In this document: in pieces, positions 545 to 27,373 of the stretch | Layout of the letters: each line of letters starts with the position of its first letter | Numbering within the stretch: position 1 is the stretch's first letter | Assembly: GCA_963082975.1 (NCBI GenBank) | Contig: OY720348.1 | Span: 68,349,719-68,413,718 of the forward strand | Reading direction: 5' to 3' | Source: Labia minor | Taxonomy: Eukaryota > Arthropoda > Insecta > Dermaptera > Spongiphoridae | Length of the DNA stretch: 64,000 nucleotides | Notes under the pieces: model-generated | Seen by the model: the letters and a program-made list of their open reading frames with translations, nothing else | Told to the model about the DNA's origin: nothing | The model's database searches: none | Program-made: the position numbers and the translations under genes

Positions 545-1532
545 CTCTAAACCTTTGATTCAATTGAGAATATAAAATTTGGATGTTGTTATCCATGAGT
601 ATTCTATTGGAGATGATGCTCCCTTGAAATTTCTTGTCAAAGTGACTCTGTGAAAGGCATCACTTCAGCTTAAATAGCAAAAAGTTAATATATTATACAA
701 TTCTAATCCGATAATTATCATCTTTTGGTTTTGAAAAAAATAAAATAATTTCAAAAGAAATAAATTTATATTTTTGATAATTTATATATTTAATAACGAA
801 AAGTGTTCTAATCTTAATTTTGATTTTTCAGAAAGATAACTCCATACATCGATGAGAAAAAAGGAGAAGAAATATTGATGAATTTTTATGTATTTATTTA
901 TATATTTATTTATAATTATCATATGTAACTTTTTCTGTAATTTGTGAATGAATACTAATAATAAAACGAACAAATGTAAATAATTATGAAGTTTTAATTT
1001 GAAGTAAACATTCTTATCTTTACCTTTATATATTCCTATTCATCATATATACTCATTACATACATATATATATATATATACCAGTTTAAATTCGAATTAA
1101 AAAAATGTTCCAATGATACAAAATTAAATACAATGTTGAAATACCAAAATAATAAAAAAAATAGTTCATTTAATAATTTAACTTTATATTGAAAGAAAAA
1201 TAAACAGTAAAAATATAAATATAGGTAAAACGAATTTAGGAGAGACTCTAATACAATGAATATACACGTAATTAAGTTTTAACACAGAGATTGGTTCCAG
1301 AAAAAACCACTAAAAAAAACGTATAAAACAAAACATTGATCTTATGGAAAATTGGTGATTGGTTCCTTATCTCTAAAACCTATGAAAATTAGAGAAAAAT
1401 AGGGATTTTTTAAGAATATGTATTCAGGTTTATTTATTAAATCACAGATATAATGTGTATTTAAGCATAATTATTAAAGAAAAAAAATAAGCACTCTAAG
1501 CTTGATAGTTCTTACAGTGGCCTCGTTTAAAC
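545..1532. other. Decayed modules, TA tract, no gene
   Basis: This stretch holds an exon-like block (581-722; one frame reads VIHEYSIGDDAPLKFLVK before a stop), then a block with a pyrimidine-rich acceptor-like end followed by aaagataactccatac (from 829). A (TA)n tract follows near 1062-1080, then AT-rich DNA with nothing recognisable. Equivalents are 26818-27822 in B, where the TA tract is longer, and 57827-58832 in C. Confidence 0.5.
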
Positions 1533-2289
1533 CAGTGGCGAACCTAGAACTTTTGCCGCCCGGGGCGATCTCCAGTTTGCCGCCCTTTTTATTATAAGTC
1601 AATCAAACAGTGGTATTTATAAATTAATGCACATAAATAAATTATTAAGTTATTTAATCAATATTAATTAATACACAGAGAGTAAATTTTTTATACATAT
1701 TTGTATGCACTCGTAAACATATTAATATAATATTTACTCTTCTAGCTTTCATACTAGAAAAATCGTGTAAAATGCTCTCAAAATTTATATTTATATTTTT
1801 TCCACCGGCCTGCTTTTCAAAAGAAAAATCGATAATTTAAAAAAATATTGCTATATCACTTCAAAGTAATCATAGAAACTTTTCAAAAGAAATGACATCT
1901 ATAAACTGATATCAAAAAATTTTAGTTAGGAAAAATTGCTGAACAAAATCGTAAAGATGCGTTTACGAATTCAACGAATTTTAATGAATACAATAAAATA
2001 AAATTATTATCCTGTTCTTGGAAGTAGAATTTAAAATTTACACTAAAATGTATTTATTTACACCGAGGAATAATATTCGAAATCATATAGTTAATCATAA
2101 TTTATAGAAATCAAATAGTAAACTTATAATAATCATAATAATCATTTATTATTTAAGAAAGAAAAAAAAATAAATATGAAATGAATACGTTGCTTTTTAC
2201 AACTATAACTAAATATAAAAAATGCCGCCCCAAGATAAGTGCCGCCCGGTGCGGACCGCACCCCCCGCACCCCCCTAGGTACGCCACTG
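1533..2289. mobile_element. Non-autonomous hAT, left copy (unit A)
   Basis: A 757-bp element with inverted ends cagtggcgaacctag and, in reverse complement, cagtggcgtacctag, plus GC-rich subterminal segments. No transposase is visible. The immediate flanks do not match each other: gtttaaac on the left (1525-1532) and aggtaatt on the right (2290-2297). Each matches the far flank of the second copy at 14009-14689, so this copy looks like a recombination hybrid of two insertions. Confidence 0.85.
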
Positions 2290-2500
2290 AGGTAATTAGA
2301 GTTTTTATATCAATAAATGAGACAATTAACTAAATTAAATAATTTCATTTGAATCAAATATATATTTGAAATACTGGTTTTGTTTAAGATGGTATCAATT
2401 CACTCTCTTTAATACAAACAATAAATTTATTATTCTACTGTTAACTTATCAAGTAACATTATATTTCTATTCATATTCGTCTTATTATTATATTTTTAAT

Positions 2501-2725
2501 ATCTCGCCAGAGATAGTATTGCGATCATCAAAATTTGCGATGTCGAGATTTTGATGTTTTTATACGTTTTGAAGATTCCCGAATCATTTTAACTAAGGTT
2601 GAGAAAAATGTCTGTCTGTGTGTGTGTGTGTGTATGTATGTAGGCAAGATTACGCAAAAACGGTTTGAGCTAGAATCATGAAATTTGTGAAAGGGCCGAG
2701 CGATAGCTCGGTGTTCCAGGTATTA
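2501..2725. repeat. Dispersed repeat with GT tract and terminal hairpin
   Basis: A roughly 220-bp block with a (TG)n tract, a segment acgcaaaaacggtttgagc and a perfect short palindrome ccgagcgatagctcgg (2696-2711) just before its apparent end. The end segment, from gagcgatagctcggtgtt to caggta, recurs in opposite orientation near 15343-15370. The hairpin near an end resembles Helitron-like elements, but no CTRR end follows, so the class is left open. Equivalents are 28789-29011 and about 59806-60028; in C one base of the palindrome has changed. Confidence 0.5.
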
Positions 2726-2984
2726 ATATTATATTTATATATTATATGAATACCATTGTTCCCTGTAAAATATAAATCAAATTGTGCATTATATACAATC
2801 AATTAATTACAATAAGTATATTCAAATTGCATACCCTTGTAAAAATTAAAAATTCGCCCGAAATACAATCATCAATATTAATATTAATCAGTTAAATATA
2901 TAATATTTTAAAGATATAAACATAAAACTATAAAGTATATAACATTAATCAAAGTAAGAATCAAAAATAATCTTTAGTCAACAT

Positions 2985-3430
2985 TAATAAGCCTTTTATT
3001 CAAACGGTGTGTATTAATAAATTTTAAATAATTTTCTTTTTACATTAATTTCATACCTAAAAATATTTTACCTGTATGAATTGCTAAATTAAAATTTAAA
3101 TATGATTAAATTAAATTTAAAATGCTTTTCTCGTGTAAGAAATAAAATAAGGATTTTTATAGTTTCTTTTTTATTTACAATAATTATAGTTTAATAAAAT
3201 GACATAGTTTAGATTTGTATAAATGAATAATAAATACATTAACATAAGAATAATAAAATGATAGTATTCTTAAATATAATAGATAATTAGTAATAGTATA
3301 TTAATTACTAGAGCAAATAAAATACTAAGTTAAATAAATCAGATTTTTATTGATTTAAACTATAATTTGTGCTATAAAGTAGAGAAGCTATATTTAAAGA
3401 AAATCTTGTTTTCATTATTAAGCCTGTTTT
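2985..3430 (-). pseudogene. Decayed zinc-finger tail, copy A
   Basis: Downstream of the minus zinc-finger gene lies a second degenerate 3' end. Read on the minus strand, 3070-3140 keeps a trace of a finger linker (caattcatacaggtaaa, compare IHTG-E/K), and 2985-3015 resembles the final codons and stop region of the intact gene. No reading frame survives. A related remnant lies beyond the plus-strand gene at about 12361-12450. Equivalents are about 29270-29718 and 60285-60745. Confidence 0.5.
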
Positions 3431-5331
3431 TCAAACATTATGTATTAGTAAATGTTTATGTAAACTTGATTTAACTTTAAATTTCTTTTCACAATAATTA
3501 CATTCAAAAGGTTCTTCTCCTGTATGAATTAATAAATGCGTTTTCAAATTTGATTTCATATTAAATTTCTTTTCACAATAATTACATTCAAAAGGTTTTT
3601 CTCCTGTATGAATTAGTAAATGATTATTTAAACTTGTTTTTCGATTAAATGTTTTTTTACAATAATTACATTCAAAAGGTTTTTCTCCTGTATGAATTAG
3701 TAAATGATTATTTAAAATTGTTTTGCGATTAAATGTTTTTTTACAATAATTACATTCAAAAGGTTTTTCTCCTGTATGAATTAATAAATGTTTTGCTAAA
3801 TCAGATTTCTGCTTAAATCTCTTTTCACAATAATTACATTCAAGCGGTCTTTCTCCTGTATGACTTAATAAATGAAAATCTAAATGTGATTTCGTTTTAA
3901 ATTTCTTTTCACAATAATTACATTTAAAAGGTTTTTCTCCTGTATGAATTAGTAAATGATTATATAAAATTGTTTTTCGATTAAATGTTTTTTTACAATA
4001 ATTACATTCAAAAGGTTTTTCTCCTGTATGAATTAGTAAATGATTATTTAAAGTTGTTTTTCGATTAAATGTTTTTTTACAATAATTACATTCAAAAGGT
4101 TTTTCTCCTGTATGAATTAGTAAATGATTATTTAAAATTGTTTTTCGATTAAATGTTTTTTTACAATAATTACATTCAAGCGGTCTTTCTCCTGTATGAC
4201 TTAATAAATGAAAATCTAAATGTGATTTCGTTTTAAATTTCTTTTCACAATAATTACATTTAAAAGGTTTTTCTCCTGTATGAATTAGTAAATGATTATA
4301 TAAAATTGTTTTTAGATTAAATGTTTTTTTACAATAATTACATTCAAAAGGTTTTTCTCCTGTATGAATTAGTAAATGATTATTTAAAATTGTTTTTCGA
4401 TTAAATGTTTTTTTACAATAATTACATTCAAAAGGTCTTTCTCCTGTATGAATTAATAAATGTCTATCTAAATCAGATTTCATCTTAAATCTCTTTTGAC
4501 AATAATTACATTGATTACGATTTTCTTCTGTATGGATTGAATCAGTTTCTTCCTCAAATTTTTCTTCTAAATATTTCTCTCTATCCTTTTTGAGTTTTAC
4601 ATTATTTTTTAAAATTGAAAATATTTGCTTATGAAAACATTTTTTTAAATGTTTCGATAAAAATTCCTCACTTATAAAATTCATATGACAGTAAACGCAA
4701 GAATATAGAGGACCTGAAAAAAAAGAATTGTTTTCGTTATTTTAAATCTTAATATTTTATATATCTAACTATTTTATATTTCAATTTAAGGAATAATATC
4801 ATTTCAAATAATATTTAAAAAATTAATTTTAGTGACATTAACATTACTTTCGATCAAAAATTAGAAATAAAAATTACCGGAAATTATTAATGAAATAAAT
4901 ATTTAATTTTAGCTATAAAAAATATTTTATTTTTATTCAAATAAGTTTTAATAGCATTTAAATTAATATTTAATTTTGTTTAAAATAATATTTTTTATTT
5001 TCTATAATATTTAATTTAATTTTTATTAAACAAATATTTACTTTTTTTACAAAATAATTTAATTTAACCTACTCCACAGATATATATGCATTTTTTAATA
5101 GTTTTTATTTCGTAAACTAGGGGCATCCCCAAAAATATCATAAGAAATGTTTATTAGAATAAAAAAAGGAATGCACTGGTAAAGTTTTATTCTAATCCAC
5201 GTTAAAATAACTTTTTTGTATAATTACCATTTTAGTGCCAATTACCATTACTTTCGATGAAAAAAAATATAGTTATAAAAATTACCTATATATATTGGGT
5301 ATTTTCTGTTTTCTTGTGGATTCAGATCCAT
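3431..5331 (-). CDS. C2H2 zinc-finger protein, 13 fingers (unit A)
   Basis: Probable nuclear DNA-binding protein of about 442 residues in two exons. Exon 1 (5286-5331) encodes MDLNPQENRKYPIYI and splits a Gly codon at a GT donor. The intron is 4714-5285 and has a pyrimidine-rich CAG acceptor. Exon 2 (3431-4713) begins GPLYSCVYCH. This start is preferred over the in-exon Met at 4684 because the spliced leader supplies Cys21 and Cys24, which pair with His37 and Cys41 to make a C2HC finger. A charged linker follows, then 13 fingers of C-x2-C-x12-H-x3-H from about residue 84, joined by HTGEKPFECNYC linkers. Recurrent recognition helices include NRKTILNN, KTKSHLDF and KQKSDLAK. No KRAB, ZAD or BTB domain is visible. 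It is head-to-head with the gene at 10591. Target and partners are unknown. Confidence 0.88.
5104..5205 (+). repeat. Short dispersed repeat, type 1
   Basis: About 100 bp starting near tcgtaaactaggggc and ending after actggtaaagttttattc. A diverged copy lies at 9627-9735 in the same orientation, with shared starts (tcgtaaactagg) and shared ends (ccactggtaaagttttatcc). It lies in the intron of the minus zinc-finger gene. Equivalents are about 31056-31157 and 62083-62184. Family unknown. Confidence 0.45.
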
Positions 5332-5749
5332 TTTTACTTGATTGATGTATTATCAAGTGAAGATCTGTGTCAAATATATTGAATAATTAACTTTTCTGAG
5401 ATAAACGAGAAGGTACGGATACTCTGTGAAGAAATGTCACCGATGATATCAGCAACGATCAACGATATTCGTCTCACCGACTATCCCTATGTGTGTTTGT
5501 TAGTGTTAGTTCTCTTTGCATCCACAAGAGGTGCGAATTTAAAAAAATTGTGTGTGCCATTTTTTAAATTGAAATTATATTTGTTTTTATAATAAATATA
5601 ATAATTTTATTTGTTCTTTTATTTCATCGATCTGAATTTGTATAGAATAATTATTAATTAAAATTATTAATTAATTAATTGATAATTCTATAGAAACTGT
5701 TAAGTTATATTTAATAGTGATATCTTTAAAAATTGAAAGATCTATCTTT
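5332..5749. other. Spacer upstream of the minus zinc-finger gene
   Basis: AT-rich DNA 5' of the zinc-finger start with one copy of a sequence running from caccgatgatatcagc to gcatccacaagagg. In units B and C the same sequence is partly duplicated (see 31386-31691). No promoter element is convincing. Confidence 0.4.
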
Positions 5750-6183
5750 GTGGGTCCACGGAACTCGAAATTGTTTGGCCGCAGTAACATCATTTCTCCA
5801 AGTGTCCCTATTCTGAGCTGCACACATCTAACTAGTATTTTCTCCCATCTCTCCCACGCTGTTTTCGACATTGTCCGCACCACAGACCATCCGTTACCGC
5901 ACACCTCGTCCTTGGTCTTCTAAAAGAACATTTCCCAACAAATATATTTTTCTCCTGCCCAACGCAACCTTCTCAATTTTATGACCCTAACTGGAGATGC
6001 ATAGAGGTCATGCAATTATTCATCGTTATGCAGTCTACGCCATTTCCTGGTGACCTCATCTTTCTTTGGCCCATAAACGCCTCGAAGAATCCTCTTCTCA
6101 AATACTCTAAATCTACTCTCATCTCCTAAGGTCATAGACCACACCTCACACCCATACAATATAACCACCAAAATAATTGTTCT
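5750..6183 (-). mobile_element. Non-LTR retrotransposon fragment, 3' coding end (unit A)
   Basis: Read on the minus strand, this encodes the downstream end of an endonuclease/reverse-transcriptase type polyprotein. The order is CEVWSMTLGDESRFRVFEKRI, then YGPKKDEVTRKWRRLHN, LHDLYASP, and IKLRRLRWAGEKYI. These are the hallmarks of the region after the RT domain in many arthropod LINEs. The frame is interrupted and only the 3' part is present. The clade is uncertain. A related fragment, in the other orientation, lies inside the Helitron at 53452-55463. Confidence 0.7.
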
Positions 6184-6196
6184 ATATAATTAATTT

Positions 6197-6865
6197 TGAT
6201 TTCCTTTGATAACAATTTTGACGAGAGAAGCCCCTTTTCTGCATGATATCAGGCGCTTCCCGATAGCAACCTCAATTTAAATACATTTTTCTCGAATATT
6301 ATTACCCTTCGTAATTACTGAACCTAAGTATTTATTCTATTCATTTTACAATTCTAAGTTTCTTATGTTAACACTATTGCTACTAAATATTTAGTTTTAA
6401 CTATTTAATTAAATACAAAATAATATATATATATATATATATATAGTAGAAATGATCAAAATCTTTCAACCAACTAGGTAGATAAATTAAACCAAAAAAT
6501 TTATTCGAAAATTCTAATTCAAAAAAACTAAGTCTTTTCTAATTGTAATACCTAATATTAGAATTGTTAAGGATTTAATTCAAATATTGAATATATATAT
6601 AAATATAATTTTGATATTAATAATTTTCTTTGTGAAGAGTAGATGTATAGTATTTCTCTCAATAGGGCTTTTATTCTATTTTTGGATACATCTCCTTTTA
6701 ATTTAACTATACAAAAATGAGAGGAAAGTAAAAAATTGTTTTGCTTTTACTTGATTAAAGTTTTGAAAATAATTATATATTAATTAAATTATTAGAAATT
6801 CTAAATTACTGATCAGGATTTTACATAAGTATTATAAATAAGATATATCTTTAATATTATCTAAA
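6197..6865. other. AT-rich spacer with TA tract
   Basis: No gene is visible. It holds a (TA)n tract near 6422-6446 and unique AT-rich DNA. The first about 170 bp may extend the old non-LTR fragment (cgcttcccgatagcaacctc). The equivalent in B is 34394-35069. Confidence 0.4.
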
Positions 6866-7174
6866 ATGGAACGAGGAAAGGCGCAAAGAGATAATGATTA
6901 GAATAATTTTCCACAAGAAGGTCTCACCTTAGATAACTTTTATGAATTTTTTGCTCCGTATGGAGCTATAGAAAATATTCAGATGCGAACTTAAATTGAT
7001 AATGCAGCAAATAAAACTATTTTTAAAGGATCCGTTTTTGTAATATTTAAAGAAAAAGAAAAAGCCGAAGAATTTTTAAAAATAGATTCAATCAAATACA
7101 ATGAACAAGAGTTAATTAAAAAATGGAAAGAAGCTTAGAAAGGAAAAGAAAAGAAAAGAACGAATGGAGAATAA
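6866..7174 (+). pseudogene. Processed La-protein (RRM) pseudogene (unit A)
   Basis: An intronless fragment closely resembling the first RNA-recognition motif of the La autoantigen, which binds the 3' oligo(U) of nascent RNA polymerase III transcripts. Visible motifs are GLTLDNFYEFFAPYGAIENIQMR, split here by a stop after the MR-T, then FKGSVFVIFKEKEKAEEFL (RNP1 type), YNEQELIKKWKEA and a basic KGKEKKR run. The order and spacing match La. Three in-frame stops interrupt it (after codons 11, 42 and 92), and the N-terminal La motif is missing. It was probably a retrocopy, truncated at its 5' end, though no target duplication or poly(A) is clear. Confidence 0.75.
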
Positions 7175-7195
7175 GTTAATTCAAAATGCTCTAAA

Positions 7196-7266
7196 GCATG
7201 GGTGTCTAAACTAGACCATTCGTGGGCCACGTTGCAGAAAAAATTATGCTGGGCCGCACATAAATA
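7196..7266 (+). mobile_element. hAT end fragment (unit A)
   Basis: A short segment with gggtgtctaaactagacc, gtgggccac and ctgggccgcacat. These phrases are typical of the terminal region of hAT elements of the 'ggccgc' type. Only one end is present. The equivalent in B is 35400-35470. Confidence 0.4.
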
Positions 7267-7297
7267 TTTTTTCAAGAAATGGAAATAAAATTAACTA

Positions 7298-7409
7298 CAG
7301 TAAAACCTCTCTCTAGGACACGTCTAATAGTTACTTCATTCATTTTAATTCACAATAAATATAGTTTTTAAGAGTATTTTGAGAATGTCCTTGTAGAGAG
7401 GTATTACTG
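7298..7409. mobile_element. pogo/Tigger-like MITE (unit A)
   Basis: A 112-bp element with inverted ends: cagtaaaacctctctctagg on the left and, in reverse complement, cagtaatacctctctacaag on the right. It is flanked by TA on both sides. CAGTAAAACCTCTC ends with TA duplication are diagnostic of pogo-type MITEs. Internal DNA is non-coding. Confidence 0.85.
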
Positions 7410-8070
7410 TATATATAGTTTTATTAAAATAAAATATAACTTCTTTTTTTATAATTTTTTTATTTGAATTATAGAAATATTTATAAAATTATATCTCAAA
7501 GGGTTTTGGGTTTATTTTTTATATCTTATATAGCTTTTTTATAAATCAACTAATAATTGGATAAATACAAAAATGATTTAGATGATATATTATGAATTTT
7601 GAAAATCCTAATACTTTCAAATCTCTACTAACTGAAAGTAAGCTTTCAGAAGGAATATTTTTGAATTTTCTATTCAAATATTATATTTCATCAATTCTTT
7701 TCTCTTAACTCTTCTTTAATATTTATTTATTTATTATTTCAATGAGATATTATTAACGTAATAATTATTTTTTTAGTTACTTTTTTTTTCTAATAATTTA
7801 TACATTTCATATGGTTAACGAAAATTTGTCTAATATTAGTTTTTGAATTTTCAGAAAGATAACTCCATACCTCAATAAGAAAGATGAAAGCTAAAAAAGA
7901 AGGGGGAGAAAGGATCTTTAAATCAATATTGATGAATTTTTATGTATTTATTTGTTTATAATTATCATATGTAACTTTATGTAATTTATGAATTTGTGAA
8001 TAAAAAAAAACAAATGTAAATAATTATGAAGTTTTATTTGAGTTGAATTCCTACCCTTTCCTTTTATATT

Positions 8071-8110
<40 letters not shown>

Positions 8111-8418
8111 GAGTGCTGATTCCTATCCCATTCCCTGGGGACATTTATTAAATCGGTGGTAAGTTTTGACATCATCGTACTGGTTTTGATGTGCCTTTCA
8201 CAATGGGGCATATCTGGGGTCAATTAGTTCCAAGGTGGGCACGATGAATCCTGAATTGATAATTCTTAGTATTGAGATTGATGGGTTTATGAACCCATCA
8301 ATGGATGTATATTGGTCTTAATGATTGTTAATGATGATAATGATGATCGTTATCATTATTACCTTCGCAGCCAAATCTTGCATAGCATACATGTATTCTA
8401 AAGAAGATTCTTCTTTTT
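7410..8418. other. AT-rich spacer with acceptor-type block
   Basis: It holds another copy of the block beginning ttttcagaaagataactccatac (from 7849), a (TA)n tract near 8076-8106 and a short segment with the inverted pair gatgggttt/aacccatc (8279-8302). No gene is seen. In B the interval is 35614-38961 and is split by the hAT-like insertion. Confidence 0.4.
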
Positions 8419-8830
8419 TCATTCTTCTTCTAGAAAGTTCTTTGTGTATGTCGGCACTGTTGACTTTTTCACTTTTACACCGAATTCAGATTTTAATTTA
8501 CTTTTTAATCTTGTCCATGTGTCTATTCCTCTTTCACCATTGATATACAATTTGGCTATTCCTTTTAATGATTTTTTCGCAAAAAGTAATTTTTCAAGGT
8601 CATTAAATTTTATAATTCACGATAATTCTTCAAAATCGTTATACCAGTTTTCTATAGCATAAGAACCTTCACCATTGAACGATCGAATTGAAACTTCAAT
8701 GTCCTTAAAATTCATTGTATATCGGGGCGAATTTTTATTTTTTAATAAAGTAATTTTTTCTTTCTTCTATTGATCATTATCATTATATTCCTTAACATCT
8801 TCGTACACCTTAGGACGTACAAAAGTCAGA
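8419..8830 (-). mobile_element. LTR-retrotransposon gag fossil (unit A)
   Basis: Broken fragment of a gag-like region from an LTR retrotransposon, read on the minus strand. It is recognised by similarity to the better preserved counterpart at 38962-39400. No LTRs, protease, reverse transcriptase or integrase are seen nearby. It predates the A/B duplication. Confidence 0.5.
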
Positions 8831-9231
8831 GGTTTTTTTTATATGTATTTATATATTCGGGTGAAAAGAATTAAAAACTGTAACGAGAACATATTGTTAC
8901 TGATTTATTAAATATTAGATACTTTTATTTTAATTACCTGAAAATTACCTTTATGGAGGTGTGATTGGGTTTTCGAAAAATTATATTGGGATCGATGATC
9001 ACAAAAGTTTTACGACCCCTGTAACAGAGTTTAATATTTGTTAATAATTTTGAAATTTTGATTTCATTGCTTGATTTTTATTGAATATTTTTTATTATAA
9101 TGAAATTTAAGAACATCTAAAGTTAAAGACTTGATACATTTTATTAAAGTAAAATCAATATTTTTAACGTTTTAAAAATACATTTTAATAATAACAGTAT
9201 TAATTTAAATTAATTGATTTATTTGTATTTT

Positions 9232-9440
9232 ATTAATTTTTCTATAATTTCTCCATCGTTATTCTCGTCCTTCTGAAGAAACTTATTTAACTGAAAGGCG
9301 CTAGGGGATTCGAAAATTATTAGTCTCTGTTCTGACTCACCATCATCCAACATCTGTTCTCTCACAAGTTCCTCAAGTTCTCCTTTAACTTGGGTCTACC
9401 AACTGAAGGTTTCTCATTCGGTCTGCCCAAAATCAATCAA
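9232..9440 (-). pseudogene. Unrecognised coding-like remnant (unit A)
   Basis: The minus strand has a 58-codon open frame ending near 9232 with protein-like composition: ELEELVREQMLDDGESEQRL, later FLQKDENNDGEIIEKL. Just upstream, another frame reads EKPSVGRPKL, which contains an AT-hook-like GRPKL. This suggests one protein split by a frame change. In unit B (39832-40050) an extra roughly 25 bp within the acidic segment ends the frame earlier. No family is recognised, and it may be transposon-derived. Confidence 0.3.
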
Positions 9441-9626
9441 GTCTTGGCTTCTAGTCACGTGATCTATATATTTAATTTACATTTGTTGATTCTTTATATT
9501 AAAATACACATTTTCATTTTGTTAATGTATATACGTTTTAATAAATCGAAAATTAATGAATAAGTGAATAATTAGTCAATAAAACATTGCTCATTCGTAA
9601 CTAGTCTATCTGTCAAATTTTAATAA

Positions 9627-9735
9627 TTTGTATCTCGTAAACTAGGAGCGACCGCCACATACTGGTTGAAGAAACTTTGTTTGGAAGCAAAATAGGAATC
9701 CACTGGTAAAGTTTTATCCAAATCCATCTTACATC
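9627..9735 (+). repeat. Short dispersed repeat, type 1 (second copy)
   Basis: A diverged direct copy of 5104-5205. Shared anchors are tcgtaaactagg at the start and actggtaaagttttatc at the end. The equivalent in B is about 40227-40335. AT-rich DNA from 8840 to 9231 and from 9740 to 10228 shows nothing else recognisable. Confidence 0.45.
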
Positions 9736-10228
9736 GGTTAGACTGATCAATTACCGATAATTCTTTAATTTATTATTTTTGTTAAATGTTCCTTTGCTTT
9801 TGGCTATTAATTCTTTATTTTGGCCAAATCTCTTTTTTTGGAGAGTTATTTTTTATTCGTCTGCAAACAGTAGGTATATACAGTGTATAATAAAACAATT
9901 CAAAACACAATTTGTTCAATTTGATCATCGTTTTTATCGGCTCATAACAGGGTGCATAGTCTATAAACAAATAATAGTAGATTCATTAAAACATTTATAA
10001 ATTTTACAATGTAATGAATGGTGGCATGGTGTTTGAAGGTTGGAAGTATAAGATATGCTTTATGAGGTTAGGACCTAAAACCAACTAATAAGTAGCCCAT
10101 TTAATATTAAATAAGAATTAATATGAATCAACTAAAAGAAAATATTTATACAAGGTTGTATTCAGTTTGGGTGTGGCATAGCGTGATAAGAGGTAGAGAC
10201 GTAAAGATGGACGGACAGACAGAGATCA

Positions 10229-10352
10229 TGCTAAAAATGCTTTTTTCTGTTAACAAAAAACATGATTCGTAAAGATATGTAAAAATCTCCACATGTGAAG
10301 TTTAGTGTAAAAACCATACCTTCCCTTCCTATCGTCGGGCGGTAAAAATGTA
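10229..10352 (+). repeat. Short dispersed repeat, type 2 (upstream of plus zinc-finger gene)
   Basis: About 120 bp: gattcgtaaagatatgtaaa, ctccacatgtgaagttt, ccttcccttcctatcgtcgg. Diverged copies lie at 12470-12590 in the same orientation and, inside the Helitron of unit B, at 54299-54417 in reverse. The equivalent in B is 40811-40934. It is followed by gcgccatcta, a phrase common in insect dispersed repeats. Class unknown. Confidence 0.55.
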
Positions 10353-10590
10353 ATTTATCGACATCAGCGCCATCTAACAATGATAAGAGTAAAAACAAAC
10401 AAGGTTCCCGGAAGTCAAATTTGCATGTCATCCACCTGCTTGCTACGTATCTTAAAGACAAATAGTTGGTTGTTATTTTAATCGTAAATCAAAATCAAAA
10501 TTTAAAAGGTTTATGTCACAGATCATCTGGTTTATATTACTTATCACCTAGTATATATTTTATAATTGATATTACATTAATTAAATAAAA

Positions 10591-12064
10591 ATGGATCTTG
10601 AAACTCAAGAAGACAGAAAATATCCAATATATATAGGTTAGTTTTTATTTCTATGTTTTTTTGTCATTAAATTTATTTTTTAATATTATTTGAAATGATA
10701 TTATTCCTTAAATTGAATTATAAAATAGTTAGATCTATAAAATATTAAGATTTAAAATAACGAAAACAATTCTTTTTTTAGGTCCTCTATATTCTTGCGT
10801 TTATTGCCATATGAATTTTATAAGTGACGAATTTTTATCGAAACATCTAAAAAAATGTTTTCATAAACATATATTTTCAATTTTAAAAGATAACATAAAA
10901 CTCAACAATGATACAGAGAAATCTTTAGAAGAAAAATTTGGGGAAGAAACTGATTCAATCCATACAGAAAACAATCGCTTTGAATGTAATTATTGTAAAA
11001 AAAAATTTAATCAGAAATCAACTTTAGATTTTCATTTATTAAGTCATACAGGAGAAAGACCGTTTGAATGTAGTTATTGTGAAAAAAGATTTAATCGGAA
11101 ATCAACTTTAAATCAACATTTATTAATTCATACAGGAGAAATACCTTTTGAATGTAATTATTGTAAAAAAACATTTAATCGAAAAACAATTTTAAATAAT
11201 CATTTACTAATTCATACAGGAGAAAAACCTTTAAAATGTAATTATTGTGAAAAGAAATTTAAAACGAAATCACATTTAGATTTTCATTTATTAAGTCATA
11301 CAGGAGAAAGACCGTTTGAATGTAATTATTGTGAAAAGAAATTTAAAACGAAATCACATTTAGATTTTCATTTATTAAGTCATACAGGAGAAAGACCGTT
11401 TGAATGTAATTATTGTGAAAAGAGATTTAAGCAGAAATCTGATTTAGCAAAACATTTATTAATTCATACAGGAGAAAAACCTTTTGAATGTAATTATTGT
11501 GAAAAGAAATTTAATCAAAAAACAATTTTAAATAGACATTTATTAATTCATACAGGAGAAAGACCGTTTGAATGTAATTATTGTGAAAAGAGATTTAAGC
11601 AGAAATCTGATTTAGATAGACATTTATTAATTCATACAGGAGTAAAACCGTTTGAATGTAATTATTGTAAAAAAACATTTAATCAGAAATCAACTTTAAA
11701 TACACATTTATTAATTCATACAGGAGAAAAACCTTTTGAATGTAATTATTGTAAAAAAACATTTAATCGAAAAACAATTTTAAATAATCATTTACTAATT
11801 CATACAGGAGAAAAACCTTTTAAATGTAATTATTGTGAAAAGAAATTTAATCAAAAAACAATTTTAAATAGACATTTATTAATTCATACAGGATAAAGAC
11901 CGTTTGAATGTAATTATTGTGAAAAGAGATTTAAGCAGAAATCTAATTTAGATAGACATTTATTAATTCATACAGGGAAAAAACAAATTGAACATAATTA
12001 TTGTGAAAATAAATTTAATTCTAAATCACATTTAAATTAACATTTATTAATACATAATGTTTGA
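10591..12064 (+). pseudogene. C2H2 zinc-finger gene interrupted after finger 11 (unit A)
   Basis: Plus-strand partner of the gene at 3431-5331. Exon 1 (10591-10636) encodes MDLETQEDRKYPIYI, the intron is 10637-10781 (145 nt, GT-AG), and exon 2 starts at 10782 with GPLYSCVYCH. The frame runs 386 codons: C2HC leader finger (Cys21, Cys24, His37, Cys41), charged linker, then 11 C2H2 fingers. It stops at 11894-11896, where GAA of the HTGE linker has become TAA. A twelfth finger and a degenerate thirteenth, with one zinc Cys replaced by His and a second stop, follow to an HNV-TGA end at 12064. A protein of 11 fingers could still be made. It may be a polymorphic truncation or a pseudogene. Confidence 0.82.
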
Positions 12065-12469
12065 AAAATAGGCTTAATAATGAAAACAACATATTCTTTG
12101 AATATAGCTTATATACTTTATAACTCAAATTATAGTTTAAATTTTAAACCAATAAAAATCTGATGTATTTAACTTAGTATTTTATTTCCTCTATTAATAA
12201 ATAAATTATTATTAAATATCTATTACATTTAAGAATCCTATCAGTTTATTATCCATATGTTAATTTATTTATTATTTTTTTATACAAATCTAAAATGTGT
12301 CTAATGATTCTTTCATTTTATAATAAACTACAATTGTAAATAAAAAAGAAACTTTATAAAAATCCTTGTTTTAATTCTTACACGAGAAAATCATTTTGAA
12401 TTTAATTTAATCCGATTTAGATTTTAATTTACTAATTCAAACAGGTAAACATTTCAACCTGAATACGGA
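12065..12469. other. 3' region of the plus zinc-finger gene with decayed finger trace
   Basis: The sequence following the stop is the reverse complement of that following the minus gene (gcttaataatgaaaaca, later aataaaaatctgatg). At 12361-12450 ttcttacacgagaaaa and attcaaacaggtaaa match the remnant beyond the minus gene. This makes the two genes arms of a large decayed inverted repeat. The equivalent in B is 42479-42885. Confidence 0.5.
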
Positions 12470-12590
12470 CTAAAAATACTTTTTCCTATTAACAAAATCG
12501 ATGATTCGTCGAGATATGTAAAATCTCCACAAGTGAAATTTGGTGTGAAAACAATCCCTTCCCTTCCCAGCGTCGGTCGGTCAAAATGTT
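12470..12590 (+). repeat. Short dispersed repeat, type 2 (downstream copy)
   Basis: Direct copy of the 10229-10352 repeat, diverged: gattcgtcgagatatgt, ctccacaagtgaaatttggt, ccttcccttcccagcgtcgg. The two copies bracket the plus zinc-finger gene. The equivalent in B is 42886-43003. Confidence 0.55.
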
Positions 12591-12835
12591 AATATTTTTA
12601 TTTTAATCAAATATGAGAAAAAAGTCCGAGTTGTCACACGTCTTTTCCAAATATGAATACGAATGCAAAGGATTAATTTAAACTGAGCTATGCTTTGCCA
12701 AAACTCTCAATCATTTGTGAACAGAAATATTGAATGTTCTTAGTTCGATTACAGTTGATCTAATGCTGACCGATTTGGCAGAATCCGCATTGATTTGCTC
12801 CTAAAATTATTCCATTTCATTTGAATAGAATAGAG

Positions 12836-13979
12836 CAGCGGTCCGCAGGTGTTGTTCGAGGGGTACAGTCTAGCTTCTGTACAAAATGGCCAATGTTATT
12901 AATTTTTTGGGATAATAATAAATTTTCTAGATTTTTTAATAAGTTTAATAAAACATAAAATAGTATTTATTTAGAATAGTATCATGATTCATCATCATCA
13001 ATCAAATGAAAACCTAAAATTCAAAACAAAAATTAAGTCTAAAAGACGTCCGAAGAAAAAACGAAACAGATTCGGTTTTACAAGATGCAAATTACAACAC
13101 GGAATAAAAAATAAAATAAGTACTTAAGTATACAGTTTATGTCTAATAGTTTATCTATTTTATTGTTTTGCTTTCTACGTAGATTGTAACAATAAACATT
13201 AAATAAATAAAACGTTATTTTTCTAGAATTATGTAGTTTTTATTAAAATATTAATATTAATAAAGTTTTTGGATAGTTAGTACGTTAAATAGCTAATTTC
13301 TTATACATACGGTATGTATAAATAGCCACATCTAAATAAAAACTATCCTGGTTTATCCTCAAAAGATGAAGAAAAACTGATTGAAATTTGCCACGACTCC
13401 ACATATAAAGAAAAATTTTCTTGTGTGCCTGTTTCGACATTTTGGATTACACTTCAAGAACTTTTTCCAAATGTTCCTAAAAAGGCCATTATACGACTTT
13501 TGCTGTTTGTCGCTACTTATTTATGTGAAAGTGGCTTTGCAAAATATTGTGATACCAAAACAAAACAAAAAAAAAAAAAAATAAATTAAACGCATCAGCG
13601 GACATTCGATGTTAATTGACGTCTTGGAAACCAAATTATGAAAAAATTGCTGAAAATTTAACACAGCAAGTTTCTCATTAGCAATGAAATTTATATATTT
13701 GTAATTAGTTATTTGTTTATTATATATTTTATATTTATTGTTTCTAGGTTTATAATTTAATCATGTATTGGCATTTTTCTTTATTGTTTCATTATTTTTC
13801 ACTATTAAACATAAATTTATATTTTTTTTAATTTCACAAAATAAAATGTCAGAAATGAAAAATTTAGTTATTTGTATTTGAACCTTAATCTTGCATTTAA
13901 AAAACCGAATAGGAAAAGGGTACTTACAAAAAAAATGTAAAACTATGGGGTACGCCTGAAAAAAGGTTGAGATCCACTG
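12836..13979 (+). mobile_element. hAT element, internally deleted (unit A)
   Basis: Left end cagcggtccgcagg; right end, in reverse complement, cagtggatctcaacc. Flanks are gaatagag (12828-12835) and taatagag (13980-13987), 7 of 8 matching. The 3' part keeps transposase sequence with VPVSTFWITLQELFPNV and YLCESGFAKYCDTK, typical of the hATC dimerisation end of ZBED5/SCAND3-like transposases. The 5' coding half seen in unit B is absent and replaced by about 240 bp of unrelated AT-rich DNA (12987-13225). Confidence 0.75.
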
Positions 13980-14008
13980 TAATAGAGAATTGAATGAATC
14001 AGGTAATT

Positions 14009-14689
14009 CAGTGGCGAACCTAGAACTTTTGCCGCCCGGGGCGATCTCCAGTTTGCCGCCCTTTTTATTATAAGTCAATCAAACAGTGGTATTTATAAAT
14101 TAATGCACATAAATAAATTATTAAGTTATTTAATCAATATTAATTAATACACAGAGAGTAAATTTTTTATACATATTTGTATGCACTCGTAAACATATTA
14201 ATATAATATTTACTCTTCTAGCTTTTCAAAAGAAAAATCGATAATTTAAAAAAATATTGCTATATCACTTCAAAGTAATCATAGAAACTTTTCAAAAGAA
14301 ATGACATCTATAAACTGATATCAAAAAATTTTAGTTAGGAAAAATTGCTGAACAAAATCGTAAAGATGCGTTTACGAATTCAACGAATTTTAATGAATAC
14401 AATAAAATAAAATTATTATCCTGTTCTTGGAAGTAGAATTTAAAATTTACACTAAAATGTATTTATTTACACCGAGGAATAATATTCGAAATCATATAGT
14501 TAATCATAATTTATATAAATCAAATAGTAAACTTATAATAATCATAATAATCATTTATTATTTAAGAAAGAAAAAAAAATAAATATGAAATGAATACGTT
14601 GCTTTTTACAACTATAACTAAATATAAAAAATGCCGCCCCAAGATAAGTGCCGCCCGGTGCGGACCGCACCCCCCTAGGTACGCCACTG
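14009..14689. mobile_element. Non-autonomous hAT, right copy (unit A)
   Basis: The same family as 1533-2289 in the same orientation, 681 bp because of a roughly 70-bp internal deletion. Its left flank aggtaatt (14001-14008) equals the right flank of the left copy. Its right flank ctttaaat resembles that copy's left flank gtttaaac. A near-identical sequence with reciprocal flanks points to recombination between two former insertions. Confidence 0.85.
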
Positions 14690-15606
14690 CTTTAAATCAA
14701 ACATTTTACCAAGAAATGTTGAGCCTTCTCCATTTCGAAGGCGATATAAAATTTCAATTTTGGTTTTCAAGGAAGTGGCTTTTCGTTTTGATTTTGTATT
14801 TGTAGTCTTCGACATTTTCTTTTAAGGATAATAAAATTAAAAATATACAAATAATTTAAAGAATAGAAAATATTTTTTCGCTTACCTTTTATCTAAGTGC
14901 GTTAAAATTAAATTTTATATATAACGTTGGAAAAACAAACTTGCGTTTAAAAAATGTCTTTACCAAACAGGTGGGATTCCATTGATATTTCACAAAATAC
15001 TAAAACGTTTCTACATATTGCAAAAAGGGAATTCCTTTAAATTTTTGCCATTTAGAATTTCTCTGACCAGTAAATTTGCTTGAATGTATGTACACAATTT
15101 AAACAGAAAAAAAAACGAAAGAGAAACCAATAGATACATATAATCTTTATGCTCTTTCTGTTTTTTATGTTTGTAAGCTGAGTGTGTTTTTATTTATGTG
15201 TGTTATGATAGTTTGAACCGTGCTAAAACAAATAAAATCGTGTAAAAAAAATAAAATTCTTGATTTTCAATCCGTGTTAAATCAAATTCGTGTAAAAAAA
15301 GACCGTGTAAAAACAGAAACAGGTGTATATAGTACCTGAAACACCGAGCTATCGCTCGCCCGTTTAACAAATTTATACAATTTATTATTATAAACTTTAA
15401 AAATTATACAATTTTTTAATTATTTATTACAATTGTGAAAAATGATCCATCAAAAAATTTTTCCTAAAATGGTACAAATTAATAAAAAAAAAAATTGATT
15501 TTCATTTCAGGATGAAAATATATTGAAATTTACTTGATAAAATATTTGATCCTATATTATATTTATATATGTTGTTATAATTAAATGGCCTCAGTATTAT
15601 ATTTAG
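14690..15606. other. AT-rich spacer with inverted copy of the hairpin end
   Basis: No gene is seen. Near 15222-15320 there are repeated (c)cgtgtaaaa phrases. At 15343-15370, caccgagctatcgctcgccc is the reverse complement of the end of the repeat at 2501-2725. The equivalent in B is 45909-46827. Confidence 0.4.
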
Positions 15607-15711
15607 GAAAGAAGGCCAAAGGCAGATGAATCTCATCCAAGAGATTGCTGTGCAGGAATTAAAAAACAATTGTCCCCTTCAAGATCACAGATAAGCAAAG
15701 CATTTAGGATG
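15607..15711 (+). other. Possible exon of an unrecognised gene (unit A)
   Basis: A 105-nt segment bounded by a tatatttag acceptor and an ATG|GTATGT donor. Two frames are open over much of it. One reads QMNLIQEIAVQELKNN before a stop; the other (ERRPKADESHPRDCC) is open throughout. The segment is conserved in B (46828-46932) with the same splice-like signals. No partner exon is identified. Confidence 0.3.
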
Positions 15712-16524
15712 GTATGTGTGGCGACAACATGTCGGGGAAATTTATAAATATATATAATTAATATATCAGTGAAAAGTTATAAATCTAGAATTTATAAAAT
15801 TAAATTTTTATAGAAATATTTTTTTAAAGTCAAGTATCTCGGTTTTAATTAATAGGAATAAATAAATTTACAATTAATACTTGATTAGGGAAGGATTGAA
15901 GGATGATTTCGGTGGAGAGGCCGGTTAACATCTTCCACTGGAAAGGAAATGGGAACTGAGTGCGCTCCTCGTGCTCGAAGCTCACCGGCAGGCCAGGAGG
16001 GAGGGTTGGTGGGAGGTGAGGTGGGGTGGCGGGGGGATCATCATGGCGGCAAATCTTTTCAATCTGTCAAAATACAATAATTAATATTTAATTAACGAAG
16101 CACCGTAAAATTATATAATAGTAGTGAAAATTAATCTACGTTTCATAATGAATCGATTCGTATAGGTTTTACCTGTTGTTATGAGGCAATCTTTTTGTTG
16201 AACTGTAAACATAAACCGATATTAAAATTAATTAAAAATTTCCATTTCATGATACGAAAAATCAATTTTATTTAGAATCTGGCTAAAATTATGTTCAATT
16301 GATTTATTTTGGTCACAATTTACAAGATTCAGTCAAAAATTTTAATAAAATGAAAAACATGGATTTGCTTGGTTTTTTCTAATTCTCCAAAGCGTTCTAT
16401 AAATATGAGTTCCAAATTTTATACTATTGTGAAGCGTTGGAGAGGTGGGTCCTCTCAGAGGCACTTGATATGTCTCACTTGTCAATTAAAGGGTTTTGCT
16501 AGTCGAAGAATTGACGTGATCTGG

Positions 16525-16569
16525 ATATATTTGAATTAAACCCCCTTCAGGGGTTTAATTCAAATATAT
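16525..16569. repeat. Perfect 20-bp-arm hairpin (unit A)
   Basis: Arms atatatttgaattaaacccc and ggggtttaattcaaatatat flank the loop cttca (16545-16549). A second hairpin follows directly (16569-16596; 13-bp arms around aa, with ggagactct/agagtctcc). No ORF crosses it. Confidence 0.9.
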
Positions 16570-16678
16570 ATAGGAGACTCTAAAGAGTCTCCTATAAAAG
16601 ACGATAATTTCATTTTTATTTCTTTTTAATGACTCTATGCTAGGTATTCTCCTTCATCCAAATAAATTTGATTTTTTG

Positions 16679-16870
16679 ATGGATCCAGGGAGGGGAGGGG
16701 GGAAGAGTAAGCGTAAGGGAATGGATGGAAAGGAGTCAACGGTTAAAGAACATGATTCCTCCAGGTAGAAGAGAGATTTAGAAGAAATCATGAGCTCACG
16801 TGAGGGCAGGGACGCTACTCCCTGAAGTAGAAATCTTTTCTATTGGGATCATAGAGAAGAAACTACCCGT
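16679..16870 (+). other. Coding-like open stretch, unrecognised (unit A)
   Basis: An open frame from an ATG reads MDPGRGGGKSKRKGMDGKES to a stop, with a possible CAG|GTAGAA donor at 16764/16765. A second frame further on reads VRAGTLLPEVEIFSIG, then KKLPVTRQNLSNK. Both are kept in B (47903-48130). They may be decayed exons. No family is recognised. Confidence 0.2.
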
Positions 16871-17842
16871 TACCCGTCAAAATCTTTCTAATAAGTCTTA
16901 CTATCTATTTTTTCTATTATTTATTGATATTTATAAGATATAATCATTATTTTTTATTTAAAAATTATGTAATAATTGTTTCTTGTCTATTCTATTTTTC
17001 AATCCTTTTGTCTATTAATCTATTAATTTAATATCTTTTCAGGTTCTCTTTAGCTTTACCTCTTGATCTTTCAATTATCTATTACTAATTTATATATTTT
17101 GTCTTTTACCATTCTAGGATAGATAGTAATACACCAACAAATATTATATATATATATATTTATATTGTTATATTATTTCTATTCTTTATTTTTTATATAT
17201 TATATCGCTTATTTATAAAATATATAATAATTGGATAAATTCAAAAATAATTTAGATGTTATATTATGAATTTTGAAAATCCTAATACTTGTCAATTCTC
17301 TACCACCTAAATGTAAATTTTCATAACGAATATTTTATAATTTTCTATTAAAATATTATATTTCATCAATTCTTTTCTATTTATTTATTTTCATATTTAT
17401 TTATTTATTTATTTCATCTTAGAATTGTACTCACCTTTTTAGTGGGATCCATCCATGATTTGAAAGATTATCAATGAAGTTGTTTCCTGAAAACAGAAAA
17501 AGAAACCAAACAAAACACATCGATGCATATTTTCAATCGATTACAAAATATTTGAAAATATTTTTATAAATAAGTATCAAGAAAATATACTCACTCTGGG
17601 AGTTGTACTCTTAGCAATAAGACAATGGATCGATCATCTGGAATTCATTCATTTAGCTTCCCTCTTGTTTCCTGAATGCCATCCTTCAAGTTCAAGTAGA
17701 ACTAAAAAAATGGAAAAAAATTTTAATTCAATTAAAATCGTACTTTTAATAAAAATGAATCGAGTATAGTTTAAAATTGAAATGAATATAAAAAGTGAAT
17801 AAAATCTAAATTTATATACCTATATTGTATTTTATTTTAGAT

Positions 17843-17972
17843 CAGGCGCCCCAGATCAATTTTTAATGCGCCCTCGCTGGACTTTTTTCCAATATAGTTC
17901 TAAAAAAAAAAGGTAAAATGATTTTGCGGTGAGGATTTTTCAGGCTCTAAGTATCACCAGTGCCCACCCCTG
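17843..17972. mobile_element. 130-bp hAT MITE (unit A)
   Basis: Left end caggcgccccagat; right end, in reverse complement, caggggtgggcac. A perfect 8-bp target duplication ttttagat flanks it (17835-17842 and 17973-17980). Non-coding. Confidence 0.85.
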
Positions 17973-18131
17973 TTTTAGATACTGAACTGAATTTAACCCT
18001 ATTTTACAAGCTTTTTGAGACACTATTTAAAAATTAGTGGTGGGATTTCGAAATAACCACTTGAATCTATTAATTGTTAATATTTGTTTTAAATGTTGGA
18101 AAAATAAAAAAAAGAAAATAAAAGTTTTATA

Positions 18132-18273
18132 TTATTATTATTATTTCCACGGATAGAGGATCACGCAGAGCTATAGAGAGAAAAAATTAATTATTGAATT
18201 TCCTTAGGCTCGAACTCGACCCTTCAATGTGGTAGACTGTCGTGCTAACCACTAAACCTTTGAAGAGTCTAAG
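18132..18273 (-). mobile_element. tRNA-derived SINE (unit A)
   Basis: A 142-bp element flanked by a 9-bp target duplication agttttata (18123-18131 and 18274-18282). Read on the minus strand, it has a pol III A box (tttagtggttagcac) and B box (ggtcgagttcgagcc) spaced as in tRNAs, then a unique body and an (AAT)n tail. The acceptor stem does not pair, so it is not a working tRNA gene. Tail, duplication and promoter boxes together mark a SINE. Confidence 0.88.
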
Positions 18274-18282
18274 AGTTTTATA

Positions 18283-19093
18283 AAATTATTTTAGAAGTCC
18301 CTTGAATTAGATTTCTTACCACACAGGTCAATTTCAATTAATTATTAAAAATATTAATTTATTTCATTAAATAGAATTGAATAAACAGCCCACCAATGAG
18401 ATGCCTCGCTGTCGTTGTGAAGGGATGAGATGAATCTCAATAGCTGGAAATCAACAGACTAAGATGGTTGGAGAGATGTGAATGGTCTGGGGAGAAGGAG
18501 GATGTAAATTCAAACAACAGGGGGAAAGGTGGTAGTATAAACTTTATAAGTAGTTTTATTGTAACAGATAAAAATAATAAATTTATGTTATTAACAGAAA
18601 AATTAAATAATAGAAACGACTTAAAAATAATCCATTTCTTTATATTAGTGAAATATAATTTTTTGTATATCATTGTAAATTGTATTTATATAATGATGAA
18701 CACATATATAATATAAAATGATATTTTTATTGAAACTCGATATTTTCTTGCTATTCATTACAAAATTACATATGTAAACATATGCTTTGATACCATCAGC
18801 TTATCCATTAATTAATCAAATCTTTTGTAATGAACTGATGGGAATAAATGGATACTTTGCAATTCTCATCCAACCCACAGGATTGAAAATAATTAATAAC
18901 ATTATATATATATATATATGTAATTATTTTTTCTGATATTATTAGAATATCTATATATTATTAGATTGCAACTTGAAATAAAATAATCGAATCTGTAAAC
19001 TCATTTTCTTTTTTTTTCTAAAAATAAAAAGATTAAATTAAAAAAAATAGAGATTTTGAATTTTCTCTATTCAATTAGAAAATCAAGTGAATA
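18283..19093. other. AT-rich spacer
   Basis: Short frames are open on both strands over 18437-18716, but none has recognisable features or consistent start context. A (TA)n tract lies near 18903-18919. No gene is supported. The equivalent in B is 49506-50318. Confidence 0.35.
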
Positions 19094-19632
19094 CTCGAGG
19101 GAAGGTCAATAAGTCATGACTTTTTGAATAAAACACAAGTTTTTGGATAAAAAATTAATTTATTTTTCAATGTAGTCTCCTTTGAGCTCTATATACTTCG
19201 TCCAAAGTTTCTGTAATTTTTTTATCCCTTCCAAAAAATAAGATTTGTCGATAACATCAAAATAAGTATTTGTTTGTGAGATGATTTCATCGTTAAAATC
19301 CAATATCTCTTTCCGCCGAGCAATTTCTTCAGGTTTGGAAACAAGAAATAGTCACTCGGGGCTAAATCTGGAGAATAGGGCGGATAAGGAAGCAACGAAT
19401 TCCTCGTAGTATCCCAATTCATGGATCTTGAAGGAAATTCACTTTTTTCAAATTTGTTATCAAATCACGAGGTAGTCTGCTATTAATGGATGTTAAATAA
19501 AAACTAAAAGACCCTGCTGGTTGAAATTTCAACAGGAGTCAGCTGATCGTCGCTTGTTGATAGGAGCAGTGTTTCCATTTCATTTAAAAGACGGGAAATA
19601 CAAAAAGTAACGGACTTATTGACCTGCCCTCG
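19094..19632 (-). mobile_element. Deleted mariner element (unit A)
   Basis: Inverted ends share cgaggg-aggtcaataagtc, and TA lies on both sides (19092-19093 and 19633-19634). The minus strand keeps the 3' end of a mariner transposase: PYPPYSPDLAPSDYFLFPNL with the last catalytic-triad Asp region, LLGGKRY, and then in another frame WTKYIELKGDYIEK at the C-terminus. The 5' half, with the helix-turn-helix domain and the first two Asp residues, is deleted, and the element is only 539 bp. It could be moved only by a transposase supplied elsewhere. Confidence 0.88.
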
Positions 19633-20064
19633 TACCTATAGACATAGACTTGTATATATGATATATATTATTATGTAAATTTGTAATGAATAGGAAAAAA
19701 ATTTTTAACTAAAGAAGGAATTATTTTACTAATAAGTATAATAAATATACATATATATAAATGAGTAAATTTGTTGATATATAATTTTTATTTAATCTTT
19801 AATATTTTTTTATAGTTGAAAATTAGCAAAAACTGATAATTTTTTAAAAAACTCGAAATAAATCTAATGAACTTATGTAAAAACTAGTTATTATTTATTT
19901 ATTAAAAATCAAAAACTGAATAAATTGATATATAATTTTAACTTCAATATTTCATATAGTTGAAAATTAGCAAAAAATCATAATTTTATTTTTTTGAAAA
20001 AGTCGATAGAATAAAAACTTTTAAAGAAATATAAAAACAGTAGGAAGACTCATCCTATTAATAT

Positions 20065-20230
20065 CAGTGTTTCCCAATATGGGGCTTTCGCCCCACAAGG
20101 GGGCAATTTGATTGTAAAGAAGGGCAATTCGAAAATGACTTGACACGAGTTTAACTCTTTTTAATATTACAAATGAATTGATACAAGAGACGTTTGGATA
20201 TCTAAGGTAAGGTACCAAAAGTCAGAAAGA
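20065..20230 (+). mobile_element. hAT left-end fragment (unit A)
   Basis: Starts cagtgtttcccaatatgggg and continues with gggggcaatttgatt and agggcaattc, phrases typical of the 5' end of ZBED5-type hAT elements. No right end is found within several hundred bases. The equivalent in B starts at 51290. AT-rich DNA from 19633 to 20064 shows nothing else. Confidence 0.45.
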
Positions 20231-26200: not shown

Positions 26201-26273
26201 CGATAATATTTCTCTTATGTTATTGAAAAAAATAAAATAATTTCAAAAGAAATAAATTTACTTTTGAATAATA
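20231..26273. repeat. Array of decayed modules at the unit junction (unit A)
   Basis: A roughly 6-kb AT-rich stretch built from repeated modules. Each has block a (for example 20909-21050, 23245-23390; frame VIHEYSVGDVASLRVLV) and block b (for example 21770-22010, 24157-24400; acceptor-like ttttttcag, then aaagataactccatacatc, frame KITPYINEKEEKEG). Two longer direct repeats, about 20820-23130 and 23150-25490, share most of this. Further block-a traces lie at 22800, 25350 and 26066. A (TTTA/TTA)n microsatellite lies at about 25485-25600. No intact gene is present. A decayed tandem gene family is plausible. Confidence 0.55.

Positions 26274-27329: not shown

Positions 27330-27373
<44 letters not shown>

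Follow-up and report, generated by a model that had tools for sequence, protein, structure and literature searches.

How does a segment of DNA come to lie between two copies of one transposon family whose target site duplications have been exchanged? This question is raised by a stretch of 64,000 nucleotides of Labia minor (C10:68349719–68413718 of the searchable 604-Mb genome; hereafter the window), in which copies of a small hAT-type element border a segment carrying a pair of C2H2 zinc-finger open frames. The segment is part of an array of six tandem units on contig C10 (units 1, 2, 3, A, B and C), which continues outside the window. An earlier note on this DNA had proposed two original insertions of the element that exchanged halves, the segment between them having been either a circle or one unit of a separate tandem array. 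For brevity, we write a for the motif aggtaatt, b for gtttaaac, S for the segment 2290–14008 and T for the sequence 14690–27822.

In unit A, the left hAT copy (1533–2289, 757 bp) is preceded by b (1525–1532) and followed by a (2290–2297). The right copy (14009–14689; 681 bp, with deletions of 67 bp and 9 bp) is preceded by a second a (14001–14008) and followed by the right copy of b (14690–14697), which here reads ctttaaat. These coordinates and flanks are exactly those claimed in the earlier note. The other hAT copies in the window are the left copies of unit B (27823–28579) and unit C (58833–59590), both flanked by gtttaaac and aggtaatt, and the right copy of unit B (45164–45908, 745 bp), flanked by aggtaatt and ctttaaac. 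All of these features are on the plus strand, and the five hAT copies of the window can be aligned end to end. The two copies bordering S are in direct orientation in 6/6 units; every left copy has the order gtttaaac, hAT, aggtaatt, and every right copy the order aggtaatt, hAT, (g/c)tttaaa(c/t), so that the swapped pattern is seen in 12/12 copies. It had been suggested that units B and C share the arrangement of unit A and that it is older than the tandem duplication, and its presence in all six units agrees with this. The right outer flank of unit 1 is gtttaaac, identical to the left flank at 8/8 positions; four units have ctttaaac there, and unit A has ctttaaat. As unit 1 matches perfectly and the other units vary, the outer duplication is best read as originally perfect, its right half having decayed by later mutation.

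The copies end in short terminal inverted repeats of the hAT type, CAGTGGCG...CGCCACTG, and we take the CAGTGGCG start to suit the hAT superfamily. The genome searches used here and below scored the best candidates, and every absence that we report holds among the scored candidates. Three full-length, near-identical copies were found outside the array among the best 40 of 1846 candidates, a list from which the shortened right copy of unit A is absent. The genome has many matches to the hAT dimerisation domain (best 150 of 3604 candidates), none of them linked to the ends of this family.

As a control for the flanks we used 23 dispersed copies, consisting of 20 fetched copies and three near-identical ones on C4. 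Scored by script, the two flanks agreed at 8/8 positions in 15/23 copies and at 7/8 in 4/23, which gives 19/23 at 7/8 or better. Three more agreed at 8/8 when read by eye: L044 and L045, which have a mutated terminus, and L038, which has one extra base. Only the flanks of L039 are imperfect. By script and eye together, the 8-bp target duplication of the hAT superfamily is present in 22/23 dispersed copies. The identical 8-bp flanks that the earlier note took as background are therefore the rule in this family, and the mismatch in most family copies that it named as fatal to its proposal was not seen. None of 253 pairs of left flanks from different insertions matched at 7/8 or better (the list includes the mis-called flank of L044). 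Because flanks match within the dispersed copies and not between different insertions, neither chance nor a tendency of the family explains the swapped pattern, and the array is the exception among the family copies. Chance similarity of the flanks is ruled out by this control together with the empty sites described next, and a habit of mismatched flanks by the dispersed copies themselves.

The pre-integration state of the two sites was taken from paralogs and repeat copies rather than from an orthologous locus. The outer flanks proved to be the two halves of a dispersed repeat, TE-b, of which the left half (about 1260–1532, plus strand) holds site b and the right half spans about 14690–15325 (plus strand). 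Nine TE-b copies were fetched, selected for matches reaching site b. The site is uninterrupted in 8/9 of these, and 6 of the eight have the exact gtttaaac; the search for an empty (g/c)tttaaac site called for in the earlier note was thus successful. The ninth copy, L032 (C10:31318600–31318980), is occupied at this gtttaaac target by a small element of another kind, CAGGGGTGAGC...ATCCCTG, which has an 8-bp duplication. It is possible that the gtttaaac target of TE-b is an insertion hot spot. The dispersed hAT copy L052 lies inside atttaaaccgaac, a motif resembling the TE-b target, its location within TE-b not being shown. Three paralogous units lack TE-b, and in these the end of T is joined directly to its start.

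Site a was found empty in a cluster of the same zinc-finger repeats, inverted relative to the array and about 64 kb to its left (C10:68130001–68190500, L009–L015), in which stop-to-stop frames reach up to 602 codons. The right end of S occurs there on the minus strand at C10:68184855, 68172720 and 68144554, and in all three paralogs the right part of S (S_right, 8864–14008; plus strand, left boundary approximate, 8864–8873) runs through a single aggtaatt into the left part (S_left, 2290–5381; plus strand) with no hAT element between them. Two of the empty sites lie 12.1 kb apart in this local cluster. Since the paralogs are continuous across a single a, site a represents one insertion site, and S (plus strand) is rotated in the array relative to the order S_right–a–S_left. 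Both sites thus exist in empty form, as expected from the claim of two original insertions. The paralogs differ from S by 1.0–2.2% substitutions in the first 1.1 kb of S_left and by 1.5–8.2% in the last 0.8 kb of S_right. Their identity to pieces of T is ∼71–94%, and S is therefore closer to the paralogs than T is. The search for the source of 2290–14008 was only partly rewarded: it gave these three paralogs with an empty a and no donor carrying an element there, and complete copies of S_left were limited to the six units and the three empty paralogs (best 40 of 3014 candidates).

A rotated segment should contain a point at which its former ends are joined, and S has one candidate. All three paralogs leave S_left at 5381, and a dispersed element, TE1, begins there with its 5′ end. 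The 5′ part of TE1 (5382–7510, plus strand) is cut at 7510, where 4/4 dispersed TE1 copies carry on with shared sequence, and is joined at 7510/7511 (35714/35715 in unit B) to a spacer of a C10 family (7511–8110, plus strand). This non-homologous junction, J, was detected only in the six units: a 33-base pattern across it, searched with up to 3 mismatches, gave 6 matches in 604 Mb, all in the array, and a reversed-pattern control gave 0. To the right of J follow dispersed repeat fragments (8114–8360 and 8362–8806) and then S_right; the second fragment was read as gag-like by eye, for which Pfam gave no confirmation. The joining of a 3′-cut TE1 to unrelated DNA looks like end joining, and J is the natural candidate for the closure of a ring.

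Which of the two sequences is the host and which the insert can be read from the borders of the array. It starts and ends at one and the same position of T, 20173/20174 in unit A and 51398/51399 in unit B, with a 2-bp AT overlap. The left array border together with 600 array bases is continuous at 12 further loci on C10 and at one on C4 (13 in total), and the right border falls within a dispersed repeat. As T is continuous with the chromosome at both borders, the junction inside T is that of the tandem duplication and S is the insert. From this sequence comparison, the single-copy ancestor would have had the order L – T_end – b – hAT – a – S – a – hAT – b – T_start – R, T being the host. The symmetrical reading, in which T was inserted into S, is rejected because T, and not S, joins the chromosome on both sides, and the same continuity refutes that the array as a whole came in as a circular concatemer. 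Diverged relatives of S_left and of the T spacer lie mostly on C10, with a few on C2, C4 and C9 among the matches listed, as if they belonged to a chromosome-specific family of zinc-finger repeats and spacers.

If two elements recombined, the copies bordering S should be of two kinds. The alignment suggested in the earlier note does separate left from right copies as two haplotypes, with no switch point mapped between them. Five fixed differences distinguish the 6 left copies from 5/6 right copies (columns 72, 76 and 145–146, column 276, and a 9-bp unit at 730–738); the exception is the right copy of unit A, whose 5′ part is of the left type. Two of these differences are substitutions (columns 76 and 276), and at both the right copies agree with the old family (13/13 and 12/13 old copies, respectively; this table holds 13 of the 20 fetched old copies, without L043, L044, L045, L047, L049, L052 and L054). 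At columns 164, 242, 307, 324, 348, 372, 497, 505 and 627 they carry the young bases of the left copies. Under uniform mutation, the probability that two of two substitutions are reversions is p ∼3e-5. Conversion of the right copies from an old dispersed copy is rejected as well, because the young bases at 164 and 242 lie between the old ones at 76 and 276 and would have been carried along. For these two reasons the left copies and the 5′ part of the right copies most likely go back to two different elements. Two haplotypes are what recombination between an element X at site a and an element Y at site b predicts, unlike an event that involves a single element.

Taken together, we consider it probable that a ring made of S and carrying X integrated into Y by homologous recombination and was then amplified in tandem. 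X, a small non-autonomous hAT-type element, would have entered the aggtaatt site of a zinc-finger repeat akin to the C10:68.14–68.19 Mb cluster, and Y, a second family member, at gtttaaac in a TE-b elsewhere on the same chromosome. A chromosome piece consisting of the spacer, S_right, a X a, S_left and the start of TE1 would have closed into a ring, its ends being joined without homology at 7510/7511. Recombination of X in the ring with the chromosomal Y would open the ring at the transposon. S would then run from the right side of X round to its left, and each bordering hAT copy would have one flank from each site. Later, tandem amplification of a block of 26–31 kb that includes S, starting at a breakpoint with 2 bp of overlap, would have produced the six units. 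We infer the free circle, J as its closure and the homologous crossing-over between two elements from their combined outcome, as a ring that integrates by homology accounts for the swapped flanks, the rotation, the single private junction and the two haplotypes. Of the original claim of a circle or a tandem-array unit, the common part is thus supported by the empty sites, the matched dispersed flanks, the haplotypes and all six units; the ring would have been free or, less probably, one period of a tandem array since lost.

Several observations weigh against integration of a ring. A donor locus with X at a was not found among the best 40 of 3014 candidates, and for this reason J could also be a later deletion inside a unit of a tandem array. 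The hAT columns between 277 and 729 are free of fixed differences, and with only five fixed differences between left and right copies the switch point cannot be mapped. Too few changes separate the hAT copies for a tree to resolve left from right; the right copies group together in 36% of bootstrap trees. Column 324 conflicts with columns 76 and 276 among L006, the left copies and the right copies. The left-type 5′ part of the right copy of unit A implies that conversion between copies occurs, which weakens the haplotype argument. Finally, at 13200–14008 S_right is of two types that are 2.2–2.7% apart, one in units A and 1 and the other in units 2, 3, B and C. The latter is closer to the inverted paralog p1 (1.5–1.6%), which calls for a later exchange. 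Given the two types, one of them nearer p1, exchange between the array and the neighbouring cluster probably continued after the insertion.

Other routes lead to the same or a similar anatomy. One is gap repair or a double crossover from a tandem array of S with an X at the a of each unit, in which J would be a duplication junction and a break of Y at b would be repaired across S from one X to the next. The final structure would be identical and J explained, and the paralogs are indeed clustered locally, 12.1 kb separating two of their empty a sites. However, the genome searches found no tandem S array with J or X among the best candidates, and S is single between its hAT copies in 6/6 units, so we regard this route as unlikely. 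About as doubtful in our judgement is a composite insertion of the kind known from maize Ac, in which X ends located on replicated sister DNA would enter b together. The forks would re-copy X and its flanks and both abort, and the broken ends would fuse at J; the outer flanks would be a fresh duplication of b and the inner ones the old a, so that the donor flanks look switched. This anatomy, hAT ends and an 8-bp duplication around switched and fused donor flanks, is the one observed. J is consistent with end joining, and a single young insertion suffices where near-identical full-length copies outside the array are few (the three noted above). Against it, both bordering copies should derive from X, yet there are five fixed differences between left and right. 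Unless the left side was converted afterwards, the termini do not come from one donor, as fixed differences lie at columns 72–276 and the two old-family states are on the right side only. Moreover, the published reaction uses two elements; here the inner flanks are those of one site, so a single-element variant is required, and the donor, which is expected to persist, was not found. It is improbable that a single X at a sent both ends into b, its flanks re-copied and fused at J, and that a dispersed young copy afterwards converted the left one. If true, the maize reaction would be extended to another kingdom, and would account for gene-bearing segmental duplications without circles.

Much less likely still is an unequal exchange in place, with a and b in one repeat unit, recombination between misaligned hAT copies, and S and T as whole left-over units. 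It draws on the paralogs, in which a and the T_end/T_start junction do lie in one unit, 6.5–8.2 kb apart and in the same orientation. However, the similarity between T and S of unit A is confined to the spacer 7511–8109 (five stretches of at least 100 bp, the longest 442 columns at 69%), which also rules out that S and T are rotations of a single unit. No match to S_left or S_right longer than 140 bp was found between the cluster and the array, nor in the 11.7 kb to the right of the array, and two separate exchanges would have to be combined. An assembly artefact, finally, would be conceivable at hAT copies that are 98.8–100% alike apart from gaps and in the same orientation. We give it next to no credence, as 12/12 junctions agree in six individually diverged units, which differ in their own substitutions, insertions and finger numbers, and the empty sites agree with the inferred duplications. 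Integration of a ring through X and Y remains the reading that we prefer.

The cargo of S is a pair of zinc-finger frames. In unit A, frame 1 (3431–4741, minus strand, 436 codons) has 12 zf-C2H2 matches and frame 2 (10733–11896, plus strand, 387 codons) has 11, both counted from stop to stop; Pfam was run on this unit A pair. Each of the six units has one such stop-to-stop frame per strand, twelve in total, with 387 codons on the plus strand in 6/6 units and 436 or 324 codons on the minus strand. The plus-strand frame of unit A ends at 11896, and the finger repeat extends to 12056 (region 10733–12056). A 2.3-kb element with CAGTGGCG ends and tttatata duplications is present in 5/6 units (36288–38619 in unit B). 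Unit A has its exact empty site at 8077–8080 without a footprint, and 7501–8076 of unit A is 96.4–96.6% identical to the other five units. Pfam detected no transposase in three frames of this element and nothing significant in the frame 38962–39498. A 2.1-kb stretch inserted in TE1 (32296–34380 in unit B) contains a reverse-transcriptase frame and has ∼13 bp common to both edges; it is present in units 2, B and C and absent from units 1, 3 and A.

Circular DNA has often been proposed as a vehicle for moving genes, and we found few natural examples that display the two entry sites as well as their empty forms, a rotation and a candidate for the closing junction. In this example the anchor would be a small non-autonomous DNA transposon and the cargo a C2H2 zinc-finger gene pair, later twelve open frames. 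Reciprocally swapped target duplications around a rotated segment offer a concrete signature by which any genome can be screened. A ring integrated through a hAT element was not reported in the literature searched at the level of titles and abstract openings, in which maize Ac came nearest. In the passages on the composite Ac insertions (PMC4270019), the internal portions, which originally flanked the donor elements, are found switched within the transposon termini, a new junction fusing them, and re-insertion after re-replication creates an 8-bp target duplication. The array shares the hAT termini bordering switched, fused donor flanks and the 8-bp duplication. Unlike in maize, where both termini come from donor elements, there are two haplotypes here and the donor was not found. 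Circle and re-replication can be told apart by test, because the bordering copies would come from two elements in the former and from one in the latter.

Some human segmental duplications change the order A-B/C-D to B-A/D-C with the source ends joined inside the copy, and the relevant passages of that report take such a rotated order with joined source ends as the mark of a circle (PMC7450558). S is likewise rotated, and the private, non-homologous J is a candidate for such joined ends. In contrast to those duplications, which integrated without homology, the junctions here lie in shared hAT sequence. Entry through homology has been proposed for gene transposition with flanking repeats in Arabidopsis and, cited in the same paper, with transposon repeats in Drosophila: a repeat-bearing circle enters a homologous target and leaves flanking direct repeats, as we propose here, but unlike here the passages concerned mention no swapped target duplications (PMC2869330). 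The closest precedent that we found is the SVA/lcr16a cassette in apes, which shows the same swap of target duplications (PMC9132208). There, too, a cassette lies between two copies of one transposon family, the outer flanks come from the duplication of one site and the inner flanks from that of another, the pre-insertion sites are known, the block order is shifted and the event founded later copies. The two cases differ in that the SVA copies are clear reciprocal chimeras of two subfamilies, whereas the array copies belong to a single young hAT-type subfamily, in which left and right differ at five fixed places and the switch point is not mapped. They also differ in what followed, as the ape cassette seeded further, partly dispersed copies and the segment described here was amplified in tandem.

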